Shown here: positions 11,715-26,290 of the stretch, piece by piece | How positions within the stretch are numbered: position 1 is the first letter of the stretch | Layout of the letters: each line of letters starts with the position of its first letter | Source: Mycoplasmatota bacterium | Lineage (GTDB): Bacteria; Bacillota_I; Bacilli_A; Izemoplasmatales; Izemoplasmataceae | Assembly (NCBI GenBank): GCA_030600605.1 | Contig: JAUVLT010000014.1 | Location: 1 to 33,280, forward strand | DNA: 33,280 bases | Reading direction: 5' to 3' | The notes under the pieces: generated by a model | The model's input: only the letters and a program-made list of their open reading frames with translations | What the model was told of the DNA's origin: nothing | Databases searched by the model: none | Position numbers and translations under genes: made by a program

Positions 11715-12056
11715 CTATTTTTTTGGCAGGACTTTTTTTAATCCTTGTTCAATTCTATTTCCATAATCTAATGATTCATCATATTTAAATATTAAAACAG
11801 GACTTTTTCGCATTTGAACACGATGAGCTAATGTTGCTCTAATAAATGCTTTAGATCTATCTAGAGCTTTCTTAGCTGCTTCTTTTTTTGCATCTTGTCC
11901 AAGTATCGTATAAAAAACCGTCAAATAGCTTAAATCTTTAGTAAGTCTAACTTCAGTAATTGTGATAAATCCTATTGATTTATCTTTTACTTCTCGCATC
12001 AATATTTCGGATAAACTTCTTTGAATTGTGGATTCAAGTCTTAAATGTTTTGACAC
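11715..12056 (-). CDS. rbfA: Ribosome-binding factor A
   Basis: Small KH-fold factor that binds the 30S subunit and helps mature the 5' end of 16S rRNA, needed especially in the cold. The 113 residues are the family's usual size and include the typical IGFITITEVRLTKDLSYLTV and ALDRSKAFIRATLAHRVQMR segments. The start codon is GTG, and it overlaps the infB stop codon (TAGTG), so translation is probably coupled to infB. This is the conserved infB-rbfA gene order. Confidence 0.95.
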   Translation of the reverse strand: MSKHLRLESTIQRSLSEILMREVKDKSIGFITITEVRLTKDLSYLTVFYTILGQDAKKEAAKKALDRSKAFIRATLAHRVQMRKSPVLIFKYDESLDYGNRIEQGLKKVLPKK

Positions 12057-12859
12057 TATCTTTTCACTTCTCTTTCAACTGATGCTTCAATAACATCTCC
12101 ATTTTTAATATCATTAAATTTTTCAACCATAATTCCACATTCAAAGCCTTCACGTACTTCTTTTACATCATCTTTAAATCTTTTTAAAGATACCATTTTA
12201 CCTTCATAAATAACAATTCCTTCTCGAAGTATTCTAACCAAGCTGTTTCTTTCGATTGTTCCATCAGTTACATAGCATCCCGCTATTGTTCCAACTTTAG
12301 ATATTTTGAAAGTATCCCTAACTTCTGCTTGTCCAGTAACAATTTCTTCATATATTGGATCAAGCATACCTGTTAATGCTAATTCAATTTCTTCTAATGC
12401 TTTGTAAATAATATTATATAAACGAATTTCAACCTTTTTCTCTTTAGCATGGTTTCTAATTTCAGCCATTGGTCTTACATTAAATCCAATGATTATAGCT
12501 TGTGAAGCCAGTGCTAAAATTACGTCTGTTTCAGTAATAGTACCAACACTAGCACGAATAATATCAATTTTAGTACCTTCAATATCAATCTTTTCTAAAG
12601 ATGCTTTCAATGCTTCAATTGAACCGTGTGTATCACCTTTAATAATAATACGTAATTCTTTTTTCTCTCCTTCAGTCATCTGACTGAATAATTCATCAAG
12701 AGAAACTGATTTGCCTACTCCTCTTTCTTCTTTCCAAAAACGATGAGTTCTTTCTTCAGATATTAGTCTAGCTTTTCTTTCTTCAGTGAAGACCATAAAT
12801 GCGTCTCCTGCTTGAGGAACATCATTTAATCCAGTAACTTCGACTGCCAAACTAGGCAA
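12056..12859 (-). CDS. infB: Translation initiation factor IF-2, C-terminal part (downstream of a frameshift)
   Basis: This frame encodes the C-terminal half of IF-2: the end of domain II ([13 protein letters not shown]), domain III and the C-terminal domain that binds fMet-tRNA ([24 protein letters not shown]). It begins in the -1 frame relative to the upstream part, with only a TTG at 12859 as a possible start and no ribosome binding site, so it is unlikely to be an independent gene. Restoring one base near 12860-12876 joins both parts into a continuous IF-2 of about 610 residues with the family's spacing between VRAM and [16 protein letters not shown]-2 is essential, so a sequencing or assembly error is the simplest explanation. 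Confidence 0.88.
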
Positions 12860-13884
12860 TGCACTAATAAGTTTTTATTATTATCATCAACCATAGCACG
12901 TACTTTACCGAATGTGTTTCCAGCGACTAACACATCTCCAATTTTCAAAGTTCCATTAGCAACTAATAATGTTGCAATTGGTCCCTTTCCTTTGTCTAGT
13001 CTAGATTCAATAACAGTACCTGTAGCTAATCTATTTGGATTTGCTTTATATTCATTCATTTCAGCAGTAAGTTGAATCATTTCTAGTAAATTATCAACTC
13101 CATCACCTTTAAGAGCTGACACTTCACAAAAAATTGTATCTCCTCCCCATTCTTCGGGAATTAATTCAAATTCTGTAAGTTCTTGTTTTACTCTATCAGG
13201 GTTAACTCCATCTTTATCAATTTTGTTAACTGCGACAATAATTGGAACACCCGCAGCTTTAGAATGATCAATTGCTTCTTTGGTTTGAGGCATTACACCA
13301 TCATCTGCAGCTACAACTAAAATAGTAATATCAGTTACTTTTGCACCTCTAGCACGCATTTCAGTAAATGCTGCATGTCCAGGTGTATCAATAAAAGTAA
13401 TTAATTTCCCATTTTTCTCAACTTGATAAGCACCTATATGTTGAGTAATACCTCCAGCTTCTCCTTCAGTTACACGTGTATTTCTAATCGTATCTAAAAG
13501 AGTTGTTTTACCATGGTCTACATGTCCCATAATTGTAACAACAGGAGGTCTTTCAACTAAGTCATCTAAGTTATCTACGATTTCCATTTCCTCAAATCTT
13601 GTTAAATCTGTTTTAACTTTATCTTCTAAAGTGTATCCAAATTCCATTGCGATAACTTCAATAGTCTCGCGATCAACACTTTGATTTTGAGCCGCCATAA
13701 TTCCTAGTACCATTAGTTTTTTTATTACCGCAGCTGAACTAACATTTAATCCTTCTGCAACTTCTGCTACTGTCATATCATTAAAGAAATATAATACCCC
13801 TTCAATGTTCGTCTCTTGTATTTGAGGAATGTTTGCTTTTCTTGTATCAATTTTTTTAGTTTTTTTGATGTTTTTCTTAGCCAT
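12826..13884 (-). CDS. infB: Translation initiation factor IF-2, N-terminal and GTPase part (ends at a frameshift)
   Basis: GTPase that delivers initiator tRNA to the 30S subunit. This part holds the short N-terminal IF2_N domain (about residues 25-80), the G domain with GHVDHGKTT (P loop), DTPGHAAF (G3) and NKID (G4), and the start of domain II. The ATG at 13884 is chosen because GAGGTGA precedes it by 6 bases; the TTG one codon earlier is not needed. After [11 protein letters not shown] the frame runs into about a dozen unrelated residues and a TAA, while the true continuation lies in the -1 frame. The gene sits in the standard nusA operon between ylxQ and rbfA. Confidence 0.9.
12860..12876 (-). 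other. infB: Frameshift site in infB
   Basis: The IF-2 frame changes here. On the coding strand the sequence is AATAAAAACTTATTAGTGCA; adding one base after AAAAAC restores the expected protein. The A5 tract suggests a homopolymer read error or true polymerase slippage. The heptamer T AAA AAC is not a canonical -1 recoding site, because re-pairing of the P-site lysine tRNA on TAA would fail. Confidence 0.75.
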
Positions 13885-13902
13885 CAAAAATCACCTCTTT
13901 CT

Positions 13903-17363: not shown

Positions 17364-19118
17364 TTATTTAGTAAGTTCTAAGAATAGTTCAATGTCCTCT
17401 TTAATTACATCAAGTGATGTTCTCCAAAAATCTTTTGTTGATAAATCAATATTAGCTAATTTAGCTACATCTTCAACACTCATTTTTCCAGTAGCCTTTA
17501 ATAAATTATCATATTTTTTTGTGAATGATTGCCCTTCTTTTTGATAAATCCCATAAAGTCCTTTAGCAAATAGTAACCCAAAAGCATAAGGCCAATTATA
17601 AAAACTTAATGACCCACTATAGTAGTGAGGCTTCCATAGCCACATATATGGATGTAAATATTCTGGATCAAGTCCATCACCATAGGCTTCTTTTTGAGCT
17701 GAAAGCATTAGTTCTTTTAAATTGTTTTCATCTAAGAAATTTGTTTTTTGATTATCAAAAACACTTGATTCAAAAATATATCTTGATAGAATATCTACTA
17801 CTACAGCCGTTGAACCTTGTAAACTTGATTCTAGTAAATAAATTTTCTCTTCTTTGGAAGCATCTTTTAGAGCTGCTTTAAGCACAATTGTTTCACAAAA
17901 TGTTGAAGCTGTTTCAGCAACAGGCATTGTATACTCAGCGTTTAAAAGAGATTCACTAAAAATATTATCTCCATGATAAGCATGCCCAAGTTCATGAGCT
18001 AATGTAATTACATCTCCAAATGCACCATTGAAATTAGTTAAAACTCTAGATTCTTTGAGAGGATGAATGTTAGCACAAAAAGCTCCTCCAACTTTTCCTT
18101 TATAAGGTAAATAATCAACCCAGTTTTCAGCAAAAGCTCTTTTAGCAAGATTTTCTAAATTAGGACTAAAAGTAGCAAAGTTTTTTAATATGAAATCTTG
18201 AGCATCTTGAATACTAAACTCTTTTGAACTTTCACCAATAGGAGCATATAAATCATACCATGGTAATCCATTTTTATGATTTAACAATTCTCCTTTTCTT
18301 TTTAAGTAACTACGAAAAACAGGAAGGTATTCTTTCATTGAATCAATCATTGAGTTCAATGTCTCTTCATTCATTCTAGAATTAATTAATGCTTTATCTA
18401 ATGCTGATCTATATCCTCTAAACTCTGTTAGAGTATTTACTTCTCCTTTAATACCATTCATCGCAAATGCAATTGATTGAGATATTTTATCATAAGCCTT
18501 TAATTCAACCTCATAAGCACTTTTACGGATTTCAGGGTTAGAATCCTCTGATTTCCCAATAATCTCTGGTAGAGTCAATATTTCTCCATTAAACTCTACT
18601 TCAAGAGTTGAAGTTAAAACTCCTTGGAGTCTCGACCAAAGACTTGAAGAGGATTGTGATAATTTAGATAATAATCCTTCTGTTTTTTCATCTAAATTAT
18701 ATTTGTTATATTTGATAATCTCTTTTATAACAAATGCGTGTTCTTTTAAGAAATCACTAGAGTTTGTTACTTCATCAATATTTTGAATATTGCTGACATA
18801 ACTAGAAAACAATGTATTAACCTCCGTGAATTCTGTAAATTTCTTTTGAAGGATTACATTAAATCTAGCACTTTCTTGATCAGTAGTTTTAGTTGCACTA
18901 TTTAAAGATACAAAACTAAATAATCTAGTTGCTAAATCAATAATCTCAATTTTTAATAATAAGAAGTCTGTCAAAACCACTTTTGAATCAGTATCACCTT
19001 TAAACAATTTTTTAAATTCATTTGCTTTTTCAATTAGTAAATCCACTTTCTTTAAATCATTTTGAAACTCATTTGATTCATATGATTCGTATAGTTTACT
19101 TAAATCCCAATTATTCAT
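17364..19118 (-). CDS. pepF: Oligoendopeptidase F (M3 family metallopeptidase)
   Basis: Cytoplasmic zinc endopeptidase that cleaves oligopeptides. From the ATG at 19118 it has 584 residues, the normal length, with the zinc motif HELGH starting at residue 375 and the distal SETASTFCET-type helix (VAETASTFCETIV) that supplies the third zinc ligand. The C-terminal substrate-binding region (HPYMWLWKPHYYSGSLSFYNWPY) is also typical. The start is chosen by an AAAGGTGAT site, and its A is shared with the stop codon of the preceding gene (TAATG). It is the last gene of the thiI-MBL-pepF unit; no clear terminator is seen. Confidence 0.95.
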   Translation of the reverse strand: MNNWDLSKLYESYESNEFQNDLKKVDLLIEKANEFKKLFKGDTDSKVVLTDFLLLKIEIIDLATRLFSFVSLNSATKTTDQESARFNVILQKKFTEFTEVNTLFSSYVSNIQNIDEVTNSSDFLKEHAFVIKEIIKYNKYNLDEKTEGLLSKLSQSSSSLWSRLQGVLTSTLEVEFNGEILTLPEIIGKSEDSNPEIRKSAYEVELKAYDKISQSIAFAMNGIKGEVNTLTEFRGYRSALDKALINSRMNEETLNSMIDSMKEYLPVFRSYLKRKGELLNHKNGLPWYDLYAPIGESSKEFSIQDAQDFILKNFATFSPNLENLAKRAFAENWVDYLPYKGKVGGAFCANIHPLKESRVLTNFNGAFGDVITLAHELGHAYHGDNIFSESLLNAEYTMPVAETASTFCETIVLKAALKDASKEEKIYLLESSLQGSTAVVVDILSRYIFESSVFDNQKTNFLDENNLKELMLSAQKEAYGDGLDPEYLHPYMWLWKPHYYSGSLSFYNWPYAFGLLFAKGLYGIYQKEGQSFTKKYDNLLKATGKMSVEDVAKLANIDLSTKDFWRTSLDVIKEDIELFLELTK

Positions 19119-19873
19119 TATATCACCTTTCTTATTTGATTTAGAACGTGCCAATCACGTCCTAAAAAACTTATTTTTGTTTCCTGATAAAAATCATCAT
19201 AAGTAGCATTTCTATTTTCGTTTATAAAATGAAGATATGTTAGTCTTTTAATTAAATCTTTAACAATATCATCTCTATTATCTAGCATTTTCCCATGTGT
19301 TGGAAGAATTATCTTTTCAGATGATTTTGAGATAATCATATTTATTGATGAGATATGTGCTAATGTATCTTTTTCAGAACAAAATGGAATACTCGGATTA
19401 CCATGATAATCCGATATTACATCATCTCCAACAAACATATATTTATTGTTTAATGTTATTAATAAGCCATCTTTAGAATGCCCCTTATTTATTTCCATCT
19501 CAATAGTATGTCTTCCAAAAATAATAGTGTCTTTATCAACTACTACTTTTGTTGGTAAATACTTTTGATAGTTTTCTACATATCTTTTAAGAGTATCTTG
19601 AGCAAAAATACTCCCGATTATATCAGCATCTTTTACTTTTAGTAATCCTCCAATATGATCAGGATGAAAATGTGTCAAAATAAACTTTGATACTTTTAAT
19701 CCTTTATCGTTTAAATCTTTGAGCACCTGAACGAAATGTCTTCGATATCCTGTATCAATGATAATACATTCATTACCATGTTGAATCATAAAAATATTAA
19801 TTCCAATATAACTCCCTTTTGCTGGTTCAAACTGATAAATAAAGATATCTTTTTCTAAGCTTATAATTTTCAT
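19118..19873 (-). CDS. Metallo-beta-lactamase-fold hydrolase
   Basis: A 251-residue protein with the MBL metal-binding motif THFHPDHIGG (H68, H70, D72, H73), a GHSKDGL motif and the later GDDVI aspartate. These support a two-metal hydrolase of the glyoxalase II-like branch. The C-terminal helical part resembles that of MBL proteins acting on small organic substrates. Both ends overlap neighbours by one base (TAATG), so it is translationally coupled to thiI and pepF. The substrate is unknown; the operon does not point clearly to one. Confidence 0.88.
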   Translation of the reverse strand: MKIISLEKDIFIYQFEPAKGSYIGINIFMIQHGNECIIIDTGYRRHFVQVLKDLNDKGLKVSKFILTHFHPDHIGGLLKVKDADIIGSIFAQDTLKRYVENYQKYLPTKVVVDKDTIIFGRHTIEMEINKGHSKDGLLITLNNKYMFVGDDVISDYHGNPSIPFCSEKDTLAHISSINMIISKSSEKIILPTHGKMLDNRDDIVKDLIKRLTYLHFINENRNATYDDFYQETKISFLGRDWHVLNQIRKVI

Positions 19874-21096
19874 TATAATACCTCACTAACAACCAGTCCA
19901 AGCATTGTAATATCAAGTTTCTCCTTATAAGAAATAGCAATTGTCTTAGTTTTTTCTACGCAGCGATCAACAAGAGAATCAAAATCATATTTACTTTCAT
20001 AATAAATACATCTATCTAGTTTTGGAGCTGTCGTTGGTTTTTTTGGAACATAAACTGTGCAACAGTCTTCAAATGGTCTAATTGAAATATTATAACAATC
20101 AATCTTTCTTGAAATTCCAATTATATCTAATTTATCGTATGTTGCGAGTGGTCTAATAACGGGCATTCTAACAACCTCGTTAATAACACTCATACTTTTC
20201 AATGTTTGAGAAGCTACTTGCCCAACACTCTCACCATTAATTAAAATAATACAATTATTCTTTAAAGCAATCTTTTCAGAAATTCGATACATCATTCTTC
20301 TCATAATAGTAATATTATATGCTTCAGGAATATTATCAATTAAAGCACTATGTAATTCCATAAATGGAACCATATGAAGTCTTATTCTAGAATGAGGAGC
20401 ATAAATAGCCAACTTCTTCGTTAAATCAATAACCTTTTGGGCTGATTCAATTGAAGTTAACGGTGTTGATTCAAAGTGAATTCCTTCAATTTCAACTCCT
20501 TGTTTCATTGATAAAAAGCCTGCGACAGGAGAATCTATTCCCCCGCTTAACATTAATAATCCTTTACCAGCAACACCAACAGGAAAGCCTCCCATGCCCT
20601 TAATCTTCTTACAGTAAATAAAAGCAGCATCATGTCTTACTTCAACACTTAATGTTAGCTCAGGATTATGAACATCAACCACTAACATACTAGTATTCTT
20701 TAGTACATATGAAGCAACTATTTGAGTAATTTCAGGACTCTGAATCGGGTACTGTTTATCACTTCTTTTTGATTCTACTTTAAATTTAATTACTTTTTGG
20801 CCAATTTCTCCATTTATAACTTTTAAAGCATTTTCTTTAATCGATTCAATATCTCTTTCTGATTTTGAAACTAAACTATAACTTGAAAGACCTGATACTT
20901 TATCAAGTCCTTTTATTACTTTATTATGATCTTCTCCATTTAATAAAATGTAAAGGCGATCATGTTTCTTTTCATAAACTACATTGGGATTACTTACTTT
21001 CTCCCTTATTAAAGAATTAACTTTATCAACAAATATTTTTTTATTTTTACCTTTTAAAGTTAAATCTCCATACCTTACAAGTATTCTTTCATACAT
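19873..21096 (-). CDS. thiI: tRNA 4-thiouridine synthetase ThiI (no rhodanese domain)
   Basis: Adenylates uridine 8 of tRNA and inserts sulfur to make 4-thiouridine; in some bacteria the protein also serves thiazole synthesis. The order is an N-terminal ferredoxin-like domain (MYERILVRYGDLTLKGKNKKIF), a THUMP domain (about 60-165), and the PP-loop ATPase with SGGIDSP at residues 184-190. At 407 residues it lacks the C-terminal rhodanese domain of the E. coli enzyme, as in Bacillus ThiI. Sulfur must come directly from a cysteine desulfurase; the only one in the window is SufS. AAGGAG lies upstream of the ATG. Confidence 0.95.
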   Translation of the reverse strand: MYERILVRYGDLTLKGKNKKIFVDKVNSLIREKVSNPNVVYEKKHDRLYILLNGEDHNKVIKGLDKVSGLSSYSLVSKSERDIESIKENALKVINGEIGQKVIKFKVESKRSDKQYPIQSPEITQIVASYVLKNTSMLVVDVHNPELTLSVEVRHDAAFIYCKKIKGMGGFPVGVAGKGLLMLSGGIDSPVAGFLSMKQGVEIEGIHFESTPLTSIESAQKVIDLTKKLAIYAPHSRIRLHMVPFMELHSALIDNIPEAYNITIMRRMMYRISEKIALKNNCIILINGESVGQVASQTLKSMSVINEVVRMPVIRPLATYDKLDIIGISRKIDCYNISIRPFEDCCTVYVPKKPTTAPKLDRCIYYESKYDFDSLVDRCVEKTKTIAISYKEKLDITMLGLVVSEVL

Positions 21097-21137
21097 ATTA
21101 TCTACTCCTTTTAAATCATAATAATTCTATCATAATA

Positions 21138-21182
21138 AGTTACCTTTTTATATTAATTTAATTAAAATCTTTATAGGTAACT
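21138..21182. repeat. 8-bp inverted repeat upstream of thiI
   Basis: AGTTACCT (21138-21145) and AGGTAACT (21175-21182) are perfect complements separated by 29 AT-only or nearly AT-only bases. It lies 40-85 bases upstream of thiI, where its promoter or leader should be, so an operator or leader stem is possible. Confidence 0.4.
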
Positions 21183-21275
21183 AAAATGTTTAGAAATATT
21201 AATCGGTGCTTTAGATATAGATAGTAAACTGTTTTCATGCTTTAATAATACTGGTGAATTTTACCTTGAAAAAAT

Positions 21276-21320
21276 AATAAACATAATGGTTGACATTATA
21301 TAATACCTTCTATATACTAT
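21276..21320 (+). promoter_or_regulatory. Strong promoter, copy A (upstream of the 59-codon ORF)
   Basis: TTGACA (21290-21295), 17 bases, TATACT (21313-21318). The 45-base segment matches the rpsD promoter segment 21698-21742 at 37 positions, including AATAAACA upstream of the -35 box and most of the spacer, which indicates a shared origin. Transcription would start near 21325. Confidence 0.75.
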
Positions 21321-21416
21321 GGGTGCATGAGCAAAAAATATGGAAATTATTAATGAAATATTTAATGATTATCAGACTCAGTTTCATGCGAATATAGAAG
21401 CTTAGGAGGTGTTAAT

Positions 21417-21596
21417 ATGGCACTTTTAACAGTAATTGGTCTTAAGTCTTTAAAAGCGATAAAACACATGTCATTAAAAAACAATTTAATTTCAAATTTC
21501 ACTAATCTATCGTTAAGACAAAAAAGATCTAAACTACTTAATGAATCAAATCAACTTCATGATTTTAGAATGACAGTATTCACTGGACTTTTCTAA
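21417..21596 (+). CDS. Small basic protein of 59 residues, possible truncated S4 duplicate
   Basis: An ORF of 59 codons with a strong AGGAGGTG at 21404-21411, 5 bases before the ATG, and the strong promoter copy A about 100 bases upstream, so it is very likely transcribed and translated. I do not recognise the protein. It starts MALLT (S4 starts MARYT), and 14 of its first 18 bases match the start of rpsD. Aligned with a gap of three residues it shares L12-K13, K21, Q35-x-R37-x-K39 and Q46-L47 with S4, and the bases from 21519 on match rpsD at about 64 percent over 47 positions. It could be a decayed duplicate of the rpsD 5' end, or a new short gene grown from it. It lacks the S4 motif PGQHG. 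Confidence 0.55.
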   Translation: MALLTVIGLKSLKAIKHMSLKNNLISNFTNLSLRQKRSKLLNESNQLHDFRMTVFTGLF

Positions 21597-21608
21597 CTTA
21601 CTAATCAT

Positions 21609-21640
21609 TAAAGAATAGTAATATCTTTATTATTTTTTCT
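21609..21640 (+). terminator. Weak AT-rich terminator-like hairpin after the 59-codon ORF
   Basis: TAAAGA (21609-21614) pairs with TCTTTA (21624-21629), followed by TTATTTTTT. The stem is short and nearly all A-T, so efficiency would be low. Confidence 0.35.
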
Positions 21641-21697
21641 AAGAGCAGTACCTCTCATTTTTATTTTCCGAGATTCTAGGCTGCCTTTAGAAAAGGT

Positions 21698-21742
21698 AAT
21701 AAACAATTTGATTGACATTTTATAATACATTATATATAATAT
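21698..21742 (+). promoter_or_regulatory. rpsD promoter (copy B)
   Basis: TTGACA (21712-21717), 17 bases, TATAAT (21735-21740): both boxes match the consensus perfectly. Transcription would start near 21747, giving a leader of about 165 nucleotides before the rpsD ATG. The leader contains possible pairing segments such as GCAG near 21764 and CTGC near 21792. Confidence 0.85.
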
Positions 21743-21912
21743 ATGTTGCGCATGTGTAATAAAGGCAGCTAAATAATGAATTTTATTAACTGCTGAATGT
21801 TCCAAAAAGGTTTGATAGTAATCTCTGCTGACGAGGTGAAATCATTAAAACATTCTGACTAATGAATCGTTATTACTCTTTACGCAAAAATAAAATAAAG
21901 GAGGAATACAAT

Positions 21913-22512
21913 ATGGCACGTTATACAGGACCAAGTTGGAAAATTGCAAGACGTTTAAAATATTCAATTACTGAAACCGGAAAAGAACTAGCTAGACGCC
22001 CTTACTCTCCAGGACAACACGGACAAAGAAGAACAAAAATAAGTGAGTACGGAGTGCAACTTCAAGAAAAACAAAAAGTTAGATACACTTACGGATTAAA
22101 CGAAAAGCAATTTAAGAAAACTTTTAACGAAGCAAAGAAAATGCATGGTAAACAAGGTGAAAGTTTCTTAATATTACTTGAATCAAGATTAGATAACTTA
22201 GTTTACAGAGCAGGATTTGCTAAAACTCGTCGTCAAGCAAGACAACTTGTAAATCATGGACATGTTTATGTTGAAGGAAGAAGAGTTGATATTCCATCAT
22301 ACAGAGTAGTTCCAGGACAAACTTTCACACTCAGTGAAAAAGCAAGAAAATTCGATATCGTATTAAACAGCTTAGAAGCTGTCGTTACGAGATTAGAATT
22401 TGTTAGCTTCGATGAAAACAAGTTTGAAGTTACTTACATAAGATTCCCTGAAAGACAAGAAGTCTTAACGGAAATCAAAGAAAACCTAATCGTAGAATAT
22501 TACAACAGATAA
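21913..22512 (+). CDS. rpsD: 30S ribosomal protein S4
   Basis: Primary 16S rRNA-binding protein that nucleates 30S assembly. From the ATG at 21913 it has 199 residues, the normal size, with the N-terminal MARYTGPSWKIARRL, the YSPGQHGQ loop and the S4 RNA-binding domain (LESRLDNLVYRAGFAKTRRQARQLVNHGHV, about residues 88-117). AAAGGAGG at 21897-21904 fixes this start; a longer frame from 21862 is not needed. It is monocistronic, with a perfect consensus promoter and a strong terminator. The leader of about 165 bases is long enough for the autogenous S4-mRNA control known for Bacillus rpsD, but I could not establish the fold. Confidence 0.97.
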   Translation: MARYTGPSWKIARRLKYSITETGKELARRPYSPGQHGQRRTKISEYGVQLQEKQKVRYTYGLNEKQFKKTFNEAKKMHGKQGESFLILLESRLDNLVYRAGFAKTRRQARQLVNHGHVYVEGRRVDIPSYRVVPGQTFTLSEKARKFDIVLNSLEAVVTRLEFVSFDENKFEVTYIRFPERQEVLTEIKENLIVEYYNR

Positions 22513-22518
22513 CATAAT

Positions 22519-22548
22519 AAAGCCACTCAGGTGAGTGGCTTTTTTTGT
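22519..22548 (+). terminator. rpsD terminator
   Basis: GC-containing 8-bp stem AGCCACTC (22521-22528) / GAGTGGCT (22533-22540) with a 4-base loop and a T run to 22547. Confidence 0.92.
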
Positions 22549-22551
22549 ATA

Positions 22552-22579
22552 AAAAATACTTCATTTCTGAAGTATTTTT
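22552..22579 (-). terminator. Terminator after tpiA, usable on both strands
   Basis: A 12-bp perfect stem (22552-22563 with 22568-22579) around a 4-base loop, with A runs on one side and T runs on the other. It can serve the leftward pgk-tpiA transcript and back up the rightward rpsD terminator. Confidence 0.85.
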
Positions 22580-22587
22580 ATTATTTC

Positions 22588-23343
22588 TTATTTCACAGCA
22601 GCATTTACTAATTCTAAGAAGGAAGCTGGATCTAAACTCGCTCCTCCTACTAAAGCACCATCAATGTCAGACATTGACAATAGCTCTTCAATATTAGCGG
22701 GTTTAACTGAACCACCATATTGAATTCTTACACTTTCTGCTGTTTCTTCATCAAATAAATCTCTAACTACTTCTCTAATAGCTTTGATAGTATCATTAGC
22801 CATTTCTGCTGTAGCTGTTTTACCGGTTCCAATAGCCCAGATTGGTTCATAAGCTAAAACTAATTCTTTTATTTGTTCAGTTCCAAGTCCTTTTAAAGCA
22901 TTGACAACTTGTACTTTTATAAATTCGTTAGTTTTTTCTGTTTCTCTTATTTCTAAACTTTCCCCAACACAAAGAATTGGAGTTAATCCATATCTGAAAG
23001 CTTGGTGAACTTTTTTATTTACACTAGAATCAGTTTCATTATAATATGCTCTTCTTTCGCTATGTCCAATGACAACATACTCTACACCAATATCTTCTAA
23101 TAACAATACACTTACTTCTCCTGTATAAGCACCGCTATCTAAGTAATGCATATTTTGAGCACCGACTCTTAAGTTGTCTCCTTGTCTTTTTACAAGATCT
23201 CTTAAGATTGGAGCTTGGGCACATATCACACTTTCTACTAAGCTTTTTGATGGTAATTTCATATTTATGTTATAAACAAATTGTAATGCTTCGTCTCTTG
23301 TTTTGAACATTTTCCAGTTTCCTGCAATAATTGGTTTTCTCAT
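22588..23343 (-). CDS. tpiA: Triosephosphate isomerase
   Basis: Glycolytic enzyme interconverting dihydroxyacetone phosphate and glyceraldehyde 3-phosphate. The 251 residues give a complete TIM barrel with AGNWKM at residues 7-12 (catalytic lysine 11), VIGHSERR (catalytic histidine), AYEPIWAIGTG (catalytic glutamate) and IQYGGSV near the C-terminus. It follows pgk by 34 bases and shares its transcript; AGGATG precedes the ATG. Confidence 0.97.
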   Translation of the reverse strand: MRKPIIAGNWKMFKTRDEALQFVYNINMKLPSKSLVESVICAQAPILRDLVKRQGDNLRVGAQNMHYLDSGAYTGEVSVLLLEDIGVEYVVIGHSERRAYYNETDSSVNKKVHQAFRYGLTPILCVGESLEIRETEKTNEFIKVQVVNALKGLGTEQIKELVLAYEPIWAIGTGKTATAEMANDTIKAIREVVRDLFDEETAESVRIQYGGSVKPANIEELLSMSDIDGALVGGASLDPASFLELVNAAVK

Positions 23344-23377
23344 TTTCTTTCATCCTAACTCATATTTTATCTTATTT

Positions 23378-24571
23378 TTATAAATCGTCTACGCAAGCTA
23401 CTCCCGGTAATGTTTTACCTTCTAAATATTCAAGTGAAGCTCCCCCACCTGTAGATATATGTGTAACTTTATCTGCATATCCATTTTGAATTACAGCAGC
23501 AGCACTATCTCCACCACCAATAATTGTTTTTGCATCTTTTAAACTACTCAGTACTTTACAAATACCGATAGTACCTCCTGCGAAGTTGCTAAATTCAAAT
23601 ACTCCTACCGGACCATTCCAAACAACAGTTTTAGCGTCTTTTAAAATTTCAGCATAATTTTCTAAAGTTTTTGGCCCAATATCTAATCCCATTTCATCCG
23701 GTTGAACATCATCAAATGAAGCAATTCTAGCATCAGATTCATTACTAAATTCTTTAGTAACTTTAAGATCGATAGGAAATACTAACTTACCAGCTGCTTC
23801 ATCTATTAATTCCTGAGCTAAATCAAGTTTATCATTTTCACAAATCGATGTACCTATCTCTAGTCCTTGTGATTTCATGAAAGTATAACTCATTCCACCA
23901 CCAATTAATATCTTATCAGCTTTTTTAAGTAAGTTTTTAATAACACCAATTTTATCTCCTACTTTTGCACCACCTAAAATTGCAATAAATGGTCTGTCAG
24001 GATTATCAACTGCACCACCAATAAAATTAATTTCTTTTTCAAGTAAGAATCCAGCAGCTACTTCATCAATATTAGCAGCTATTCCAACATTTGATGCATG
24101 ACTACGATGGGCTGTACCAAATGCGTCATTTACAAATAAATCACCAAGTGATGCCCAATATTTCCCTAATTCAGGATCATTCTTAGATTCTTTCTTACCA
24201 TCAATATCTTCAAAGCGAGTATTTTCAAACATCAATACTTCACCTGGAAGTAATGCTTTAACAGCATCTTCTAAAATCTTTCCTCTAGTATGGGGAATAA
24301 ATTTAACTTTTTGTCCTAAATATTCTTCAAGTTTTTTTGCGATTGGTTCTAAACTTTTACCAGCTTTATCTTCTTCTTTTTTCACACGTCCTAAATGAGA
24401 AAATAAAACAACTTTTGCCTTATTCTCAATTACATATTTTATTGTTGGTAAAGCTTGAATAATTCTATTATCATCTGTGATAACTGAATCTTTCATAGGA
24501 ACATTGAAATCTACTCTAATAAGTACAGTCTTCCCATTAACATTTAAATCACTTACTATTTTTTTTGCCAT
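23378..24571 (-). CDS. pgk: Phosphoglycerate kinase
   Basis: Transfers phosphate from 1,3-bisphosphoglycerate to ADP. The start is set at 24571 by AGGAGG at 24579-24584, giving 397 residues from [10 protein letters not shown]; an upstream in-frame ATG adds 16 unlikely residues. The family motifs are present: [11 protein letters not shown] near the start, [20 protein letters not shown], and GGGDSAAA with [13 protein letters not shown] at the C-terminus. The usual partner gap is not adjacent. A TATAAT at 24603-24608 is the probable -10 box, with a poor -35. Confidence 0.97.
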
Positions 24572-24666
24572 ATTTTTGCCTCCTATTTGTTTCTTCACAT
24601 ACATTATACTAGATATCATATGTAAAATCTATTACTAAAAGAAATGTAAACCCTTTCTTTTTAAAA

Positions 24667-25074
24667 CTAATTAATATTTTTGAAATAATGAATAATTAAT
24701 TCAATTCTTTTATGTTGTTTCATTACCTTTCTAATACTTATATTAACAATCAATTCCTCTAGATTCTTAAAAATAATTAGAGTATTCTTTGAATCAATTC
24801 TTTTAGTCGAAAGAATCGCATAGTAATTAATAAACAACATATCGTATTCCCTTAAGGATTTTGTTGGATATAAGAATATCTCGTTATCAATGTAGATAGG
24901 GATATTGTTTTTTTGCTTGAGCAAATTACTCACAGCTTTTTTTCGTCCTTCAAATGTTGAAAGGTTATTCATACATAAGTTGTTTATGTATTGTTTAATT
25001 CCTGTATTTACAAGATATTCTTTTTCTTCATCTTTGATAAATACTCCGTAATCATCTCTTCTTATGTAGTACAT
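24667..25074 (-). CDS. comK: ComK-family competence transcription factor homologue (short)
   Basis: A 135-residue protein resembling ComK, the master regulator of genetic competence in Bacillus. The best stretch is residues 34-73: C34, then STFEGRKKAVSNLL, IPIYIDNEIFLYPTKS, then INYYAI. This parallels the ComK core CRFFGSSYAGRK, PPIMVD, IFLFPTLS and WISH, including the FEGRK/YAGRK and FLYPT/FLFPT words. It is shorter than Bacillus ComK (about 190 residues), lacking the N-terminal extension and part of the C-terminus. AGGTGAT lies before the ATG and a TATAAT about 20 bases further up. It is flanked by metabolic genes and appears monocistronic. Whether the cell becomes competent is unknown; DNA-uptake genes are not in the window. 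Confidence 0.75.
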   Translation of the reverse strand: MYYIRRDDYGVFIKDEEKEYLVNTGIKQYINNLCMNNLSTFEGRKKAVSNLLKQKNNIPIYIDNEIFLYPTKSLREYDMLFINYYAILSTKRIDSKNTLIIFKNLEELIVNISIRKVMKQHKRIELIIHYFKNIN

Positions 25075-25154
25075 TGTATCACCTACTATTATAGTACTGA
25101 TATCTGTGCATATTTCAATTATTTTTGATTGAAAAATATTAAGTAAATATTAAC

Positions 25155-25182
25155 AAAAAAAAGACAAACCGAAGTTTGTCTT
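25155..25182 (-). terminator. Terminator after the MsmK-like ATPase gene
   Basis: Minus-strand 9-bp stem AAGACAAAC / GTTTGTCTT closed by a UUCG loop on a C-G pair, followed by eight T. Confidence 0.92.
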
Positions 25183-25192
25183 AAAATATATT

Positions 25193-26290
25193 TTATTTAA
25201 GTCGTAATTCTGTTTCAAGATCAAAGAAATGAACTTTACTCATATCTAGTGCAAGTTCAATATTATCACCAATATGAATATCTGTACGAGCATTTACTTT
25301 TGCGATTAAATCATTTCCACCAAGTCCGGTATGAATATATGTCTCAGCACCAAGTAATTCAGCTACATCTACTTTAAATTTTACAATTGAATCTTTTAGT
25401 ATTGTTTTCATTTCCGTATTATCATAAATTTCTTCAGGTCTAATTCCTAAAATTAAATCTTTTGAAAAAGCATTATTAGCTTTTATGATGGCTAATTTCT
25501 CTTTTGGAACTAAAACTTTGATTCCTTCACCAATAAAATATTCTTTTTCAACTCTACCATTTATAAAGTTCATTGGAGGAGTACCAATAAATCCACCAAC
25601 AAACAAGTTATTAGGATAATCATAAATATCTTTTGGAGCTCCTACTTGTTGAATATATCCATCTTTCATAACAACAATTCTTGAAGCCATTGTCATTGCT
25701 TCAATTTGATCATGTGTTACATAGATAGTTGTTGTCCCTAATCTTTCATGAAGTTTAATAATTTCAGCACGCATTTGAACACGTAATTTAGCGTCTAAAT
25801 TAGATAGTGGTTCATCCATCAAAAACACTTTTGCGTCTCTTACAATTGCTCGTCCTAATGCTACTCGTTGTCGTTGTCCACCTGACAATGCTTTAGGCTT
25901 ACGATCTAAATAAGGAACTAATCCTAAAACATCAGCTGTGTTTTTTACTCTTTTTTCAATTTCTTGTTTTGGCATTTTTCTAAGTTTTAATCCAAATGCC
26001 ATATTATCATAAACAGTCATATGAGGATATAATGCATAAGATTGAAATACCATTGCGATATTTCTATCTTTAGGTGCAACATCATTTACTAACATATCAT
26101 CAATATATAACTCTCCAGCGGTAATTTCTTCAAGTCCAGCAACCATTCTTAATGTAGTAGATTTACCACAACCTGATGGTCCAACAAATACGATAAATTC
26201 TTTATCTACAACTTTTAATGTAAAATCAAATACAGCTTGAACGTTATTATCATATACTTTGTCAAGCCCTTTAAATTTTAATGTAGCCAT
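25193..26290 (-). CDS. msmK: Sugar ABC transporter ATP-binding protein (MsmK/UgpC type)
   Basis: ATPase that energises carbohydrate importers. It has 365 residues with Walker A GPSGCGKST (about 37-45), the Q loop in VFQSYALYP, the signature LSGGQRQRVALGRA, Walker B VFLMDEPLSNLDAKLR, the H loop in YVTHDQ, and C-terminal TOBE/OB domains. No permease or binding-protein genes adjoin it. In streptococci one MsmK serves several distant sugar transporters, so this is probably a shared ATPase (inference). A good AAGGAGATG site precedes the ATG. It lies 87 bases after a PucR-type helix-turn-helix gene and is separated from it by a nested inverted repeat. Confidence 0.92.
   Translation of the reverse strand: MATLKFKGLDKVYDNNVQAVFDFTLKVVDKEFIVFVGPSGCGKSTTLRMVAGLEEITAGELYIDDMLVNDVAPKDRNIAMVFQSYALYPHMTVYDNMAFGLKLRKMPKQEIEKRVKNTADVLGLVPYLDRKPKALSGGQRQRVALGRAIVRDAKVFLMDEPLSNLDAKLRVQMRAEIIKLHERLGTTTIYVTHDQIEAMTMASRIVVMKDGYIQQVGAPKDIYDYPNNLFVGGFIGTPPMNFINGRVEKEYFIGEGIKVLVPKEKLAIIKANNAFSKDLILGIRPEEIYDNTEMKTILKDSIVKFKVDVAELLGAETYIHTGLGGNDLIAKVNARTDIHIGDNIELALDMSKVHFFDLETELRLK

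Follow-up and report, generated by a model that had tools for sequence, protein, structure and literature searches.

Four species of Candidatus Izemoplasma carry, upstream of rpsD, a short open reading frame (ORF) that we interpret as a young, translated small gene derived from a partial tandem duplication of rpsD and not as a dying pseudogene (probability of about 0.6). The tandem duplication itself is established by comparison of the rpsD loci of relatives, and sequence features found in all four species give good support to the view that an expressed, translated unit is maintained. The duplication took place in the ancestor of these species; the segment involved started in the 3′ end of a GAF-domain gene, took in the rpsD promoter and the S4 leader and ended approximately 50–60 codons into rpsD. 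The downstream copy retained the S4 leader and rpsD. The upstream copy shed the S4-binding leader core and the remainder of rpsD and, in the scenario that we propose, became a small transcription unit of its own, in which a promoter (P1) is followed by a short 5′ stem, then by a strong Shine–Dalgarno sequence (SD), an ORF of 39–62 codons and a long 3′ hairpin before the rpsD promoter proper (P2). Transcription of this unit would be constitutive, from a promoter of the ribosomal-protein type and outside S4 feedback, and its ORF would be translated, with selection keeping a small basic protein while the sequence changes fast.

Organization of the locus

The window analysed here is a stretch of 33,280 nucleotides of contig JAUVLT010000014.1 (contig 92 of 115 in a 1.5-Mb Candidatus Izemoplasma MAG, labelled G000), and all positions refer to it. 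The nearest relatives of its rpsD are those of Candidatus Izemoplasma and other Mycoplasmatota MAGs; the congeners compared below are labelled G001, G003, G004, G005, G006 and G007.

The features described here lie on the + strand. Ribosomal protein S4 (199 amino acids) is encoded by rpsD at 21913–22512; the true start is at 21913, and an in-frame ATG at 21862, the start given in the ORF list, falls at the end of the leader. P2 (21712–21740; TTGACA, 17 nt, TATAAT) precedes an intact S4 leader RNA (21746–21862), which is present at P2 only and is conserved across the family. Further upstream, P1 (21290–21318; TTGACA, 17 nt, TATACT), which occurs in all four species, is held within the 3′ end and stop codon of a GAF-domain gene remnant (21186–21303), in which an internal deletion has joined the start of the gene to its C terminus. 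Positions 21199–21294 align with residues 126–157 of the intact GAF protein of G001 (E 1.3e-4; GAF assigned by Pfam), and thiI lies beyond the GAF gene on the opposite strand. P1 is followed by the remains of an S4 leader (21324–21390), of which the predicted fold retains only the terminal 5′ stem (21324–21330 with 21384–21390), the S4-binding core being gone. Next come an SD (AGGAGG, 21404–21409), with comparable SDs in G003, G005 and G007, and the 59-codon ORF (21417–21596), a diverged copy of the 5′ end of rpsD. A long hairpin (21626–21703) separates this ORF from P2. The ORF and its SD are present as the earlier note on this window described them; the GAF-gene remnant containing P1 and the long hairpin between the units had been overlooked.

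Two further observations concern the annotation of the window. A 21-codon ORF (MEIINEIFNDYQTQFHANIEA) at 21340–21405, which has no clear SD, terminates within the SD of the small ORF. Elsewhere, infB (IF-2; 12056–13887, − strand) appears as two overlapping ORFs through a frameshift (overlap 12826–12859), and in most congeners it occupies a single frame of 611–628 codons. As IF-2 is essential, we read the frameshift as a probable indel error, introduced into the MAG by sequencing or assembly.

Evidence for a tandem duplication

From the window alone, the earlier note had proposed a duplication of the promoter, leader and N-terminal codons of rpsD. This proposal holds, mainly on the evidence of relatives: three congeners carry the same P1–ORF–P2 unit, and the ORF of one of them, G003, is S4-like. 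Within the window, the promoter segments 21276–21320 and 21698–21742 are identical at 37 of 45 positions, as previously counted, far above the best 45-mer pair in 300 dinucleotide shuffles (31; mean 26.9, s.d. 1.0), so that shuffled sequence does not score as high as the observed pair. P2 (12/12) and P1 (11/12), both with a spacer of 17, are the top two matches of a promoter scan in 19000–26000. The 14 of 18 matching bases reported between the starts of the ORF (21417–21434) and of rpsD (21913–21930) were recovered, and the 22 other gene starts of the window reach at most 11 of 18. A second block (21519 versus 22024) had been put at 64% identity and is in fact 28/47 (60%); the best 47-mer pair between the ORF and rpsD (30/47) is matched by about 1% of shuffles and is thus marginal on its own.

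A single rpsD promoter lies about 195–200 bases upstream of rpsD in G001, G004 and G006, and also near −200 in the other loci of the family with a readable upstream region. In the genus this ancestral promoter occupies the 3′ end of the GAF-domain gene, whose last codons contain the −35 element TTGACA. A single rpsD promoter over the 3′ end of the GAF gene is, judged from these comparisons, the ancestral state. A second promoter, at −566 to −623 from rpsD, is found in G000, G003, G005 and G007, and an SD-led ORF (59, 62, 39 and 58 codons, respectively) lies between the two promoters. These four species form a clade (support on branches that set it apart, 0.975 in FastTree and 91 in IQ-TREE); the derived arrangement is known from them only, all MAGs. 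In each, P1 is at the end of the GAF gene, which carries an internal deletion in G000 and G003 and is intact in G005 and G007, as it is in the single-promoter congeners G001 and G006. Another copy of the GAF 3′ end, which would read LEKVINNLIDIL in G003, stands before P2; the duplicated stretch therefore started in that part of the GAF gene and extended through promoter and leader into rpsD.

Loss of the GAF gene beside rpsD has occurred repeatedly, by deletion in G000 and G003 (locus L046) and by decay in G004 (locus L057), and a GAF 3′ end with an rpsD-type promoter has been retained in each case.

Orthologues of the small ORF were located by synteny; relatives picked up by its protein sequence alone were chance matches. 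Comparison with S4 relied on start-anchored protein scores, as AT-rich sequence made generic local DNA alignment of the two segments too permissive. The G003 ORF scores 42, whereas the best unrelated gene start has 23 and shuffles average 10, and an S4 profile places its residues 9–49 on S4 residues 10–53, in register (p = 0.0017); by these sequence measures it is clearly S4-like, a copy of the start of rpsD. The window ORF is marginal: its residues 35–51 fall on S4 residues 38–54, nearly in register (p = 0.018), and its start-anchored S4 score is equalled by other gene starts. The profile detects no significant resemblance in the ORFs of G005 and G007, for which homology is presumed from synteny and from the promoter, the leader ends and the position of the start. 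Profile searches of Pfam, PHROGs and NCBIfam gave no family for the small ORF, and the S4 RNA-binding domain (PF01479) is not found in it, as there is no Pfam match and the ORF stops before that region. An AlphaFold model of the peptide, one lone long helix with a pTM of 0.30, was uninformative and was set aside.

Maintenance and translation of the small ORF

Within the clade, identity at the fourfold-degenerate sites of thiI, rpsD, tpiA and pgk is mostly 54–68%; random third positions give 40%, and neutral DNA is thus near saturation. At the P1 unit, TTGACA, the 17-base spacer, TATA(A/C)T, the SD and the ATG are intact in all four species. In three close relatives, G003, G005 and G007, the ORF is neither absent nor stop-ridden and has an open frame at the syntenic place. 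In simulations of neutral decay of the rpsD 5′ end, all four such frames stayed open with a probability near 1e-6 when divergence was 0.3 substitutions per site and near 1e-8 or lower at ≥1 substitutions per site (overall range, 1e-6 to 1e-9), figures that are product probabilities assuming independent lineages and simple substitution. The GAF genes of G000 and G003 were deleted between different breakpoints, and the 3′ end that contains P1 survived in both, which we count in favour of a maintained unit.

Codon usage fits frame 0 of the ORF in all four species (p ≤ 0.004 each, against random stop-free codons). Against the stricter null of a decay that only excludes stops, at one substitution per site, the corresponding p values are 0.07 (G000), 0.003 (G003), 0.07 (G007) and 0.005 (G005). 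These results favour real translation, with some codon constraint. What is conserved between the species is the promoter, the SD, the start codon, an open frame and a codon usage that fits this frame. Alignment of the four peptides goes no further than a few residues of a K-rich N-terminal stretch, and no peptide sequence is conserved among them; no pair of the species is close enough for a dN/dS comparison. The peptide had been described as basic, and the net charge over the four ORFs is indeed +3 to +10, but no more than composition predicts; basic charge was therefore rejected as a sign of function.

Leader RNA and intergenic hairpin

The S4 protein of Bacillus subtilis binds the leader of rpsD and is a repressor of its own translation (PMC10931766). 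With a covariance model of the S4 leader of Izemoplasma, the P2 leaders of the genus score 134–146 bits and more distant relatives 74–90 bits. The model also gives a weak match of 25 bits at the same place before rpsD in Halalkalibacter (locus L065, 3801–3936), and no match was reported in two Bacillaceae loci (L066 and L110). Rfam 15 has no match at the rpsD leader locus; the Izemoplasma leader (21746–21862) nevertheless appears to be homologous to the Bacilli S4 leader. On the + strand of the P1 copy, the model does not exceed 4.2 bits. The leader core has been deleted or lost from this copy in all four species; what is left is a short hairpin in G003 and only the terminal 5′ stem in each of the other three (G000, G005 and G007), and the small gene should consequently escape S4 feedback.

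A long hairpin lies roughly 13–43 bases past the ORF stop in all four species (−17 to −30 kcal/mol; z, −3.1 to −4.5). The window segment is at −29.5 kcal/mol with a z of −4.5, and the relatives have z values of −3.1 to −3.4. In every case the 3′ arm is the GAF-derived segment that directly adjoins P2. The hairpin alignment has 95.6% of its cells paired and two pairs changed on both sides, a covariation that is suggestive only (73 of 500 shuffles were as high) and, given this frequency and the ancestral 3′ arm, not decisive by itself. An intrinsic terminator was rejected, as the strong stem has no U-tract and is not called by a terminator scan, and a search of the genome rejected a dispersed repeat. 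No Rho passed the cut-off in the genus, where sub-threshold matches alone were found (probably F-type ATPase subunits), and Rho-related explanations were dropped for this reason. The hairpins probably stabilize or bound the short mRNA, or separate the two units.

Alternative explanations

The main rival is that P1 serves as a second promoter of rpsD: its transcripts would pass the hairpin and P2 and continue into the S4 leader and rpsD, supplying more S4 mRNA under S4 control, and the ORF would be a translated leader that protects the message, the peptide itself being irrelevant. P1 and P2 both point towards rpsD, the hairpin without a U-tract is not scored as a terminator, the genus offers only sub-threshold matches to Rho and the peptide sequence is not conserved, all of which fit such readthrough. 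It predicts neither the in-frame codon bias nor a strong hairpin between the units, however, and we regard it as unlikely. A dying pseudogene, one of the outcomes offered in the earlier note, would be a neutral leftover of the duplication with frame and promoter still open by chance. The fading of S4 resemblance from G003 through G000 to G005 and G007, the internal deletions in the leader and the truncation of the ORF relative to rpsD are what decay would produce; retention of frames, SDs and promoters in four species near saturation, and survival of P1 through two different GAF deletions, speak against it and make it rather improbable.

The note had also suggested a decoy, or titrant, for S4 autoregulation. 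The source segment did include the S4-binding leader, but with the leader core deleted or lost in all four species (at most 4.2 bits on the + strand of the copy, against 134–146 bits for the P2 leaders) this suggestion finds no support and is very improbable. Chance, in the form of two unrelated strong AT-rich promoters with a random ORF, gains some credit from the ease with which weak alignments arise in AT-rich sequence and from the marginal similarity of the ORF to rpsD in the window genome alone. The promoter identity far above shuffles, the GAF-derived flanks and synteny common to four species and the clearly S4-like ORF of G003 run against it; the relatives refute this reading, and we give it almost no weight. 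The variation in ORF length (39–62 codons) counts against a small gene. The third outcome that the note had offered, a new small protein, is nonetheless favoured by the four open frames, the SDs and promoters kept near saturation and the codon usage in frame. More tentatively, and with considerable doubt, the small gene may represent a new small-protein family that arose when a ribosomal-protein gene had its control region and first codons copied. Released from S4 feedback, such a gene would be expressed at the level of a ribosomal protein and would have taken on a rapidly evolving role (for example, as a ribosome- or RNA-binding micro-protein), with sister proteins that have drifted past recognition.

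Significance and comparison with known systems

In this streamlined, wall-less lineage the birth of a gene can be traced stepwise: the source gene, the flanks of the duplication and the ancestral state can be seen, as can four diverged descendants. A small gene with conserved expression signals and an unconserved peptide is missed by conservation-based annotation. If the peptide is functional, the locus would exemplify recruitment of a ribosomal-protein control region for another use; if it is not, the locus would gauge how long an expressed partial duplicate survives.

The closest known element is rpsD (uS4) itself, the ancestral source of the promoter, leader ends, SD and start region of the small unit, with the G003 ORF still aligning with S4 residues 10–53. 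Unlike S4, the small ORF lacks the RNA-binding domain, most of the N-terminal domain and any Pfam match, and three of the four ORFs are no longer convincingly S4-like. The Bacilli rpsD leader of the B. subtilis type (PMC10931766) has its counterpart in the conserved leader at the same place downstream of P2, with the weak Halalkalibacter match; the P1 copy differs in having lost the leader except for the terminal stem. A short SD-led ORF before a gene, followed by a hairpin, recalls attenuator leader peptides and upstream ORFs. However, this ORF has its own promoter, a second promoter stands between it and rpsD, and the unit has neither a terminator U-tract nor an obvious run of regulatory codons. 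A limited literature search found no described case of a ribosomal-protein-derived small gene of this kind. The locus most resembles young small genes that arise by partial duplication, sharing with them a partial tandem copy, separate expression signals, fast evolution and a narrow taxonomic range; it departs from them in that the source is a ribosomal-protein gene and that the copied unit included both the promoter and an autoregulatory leader, the latter subsequently lost.
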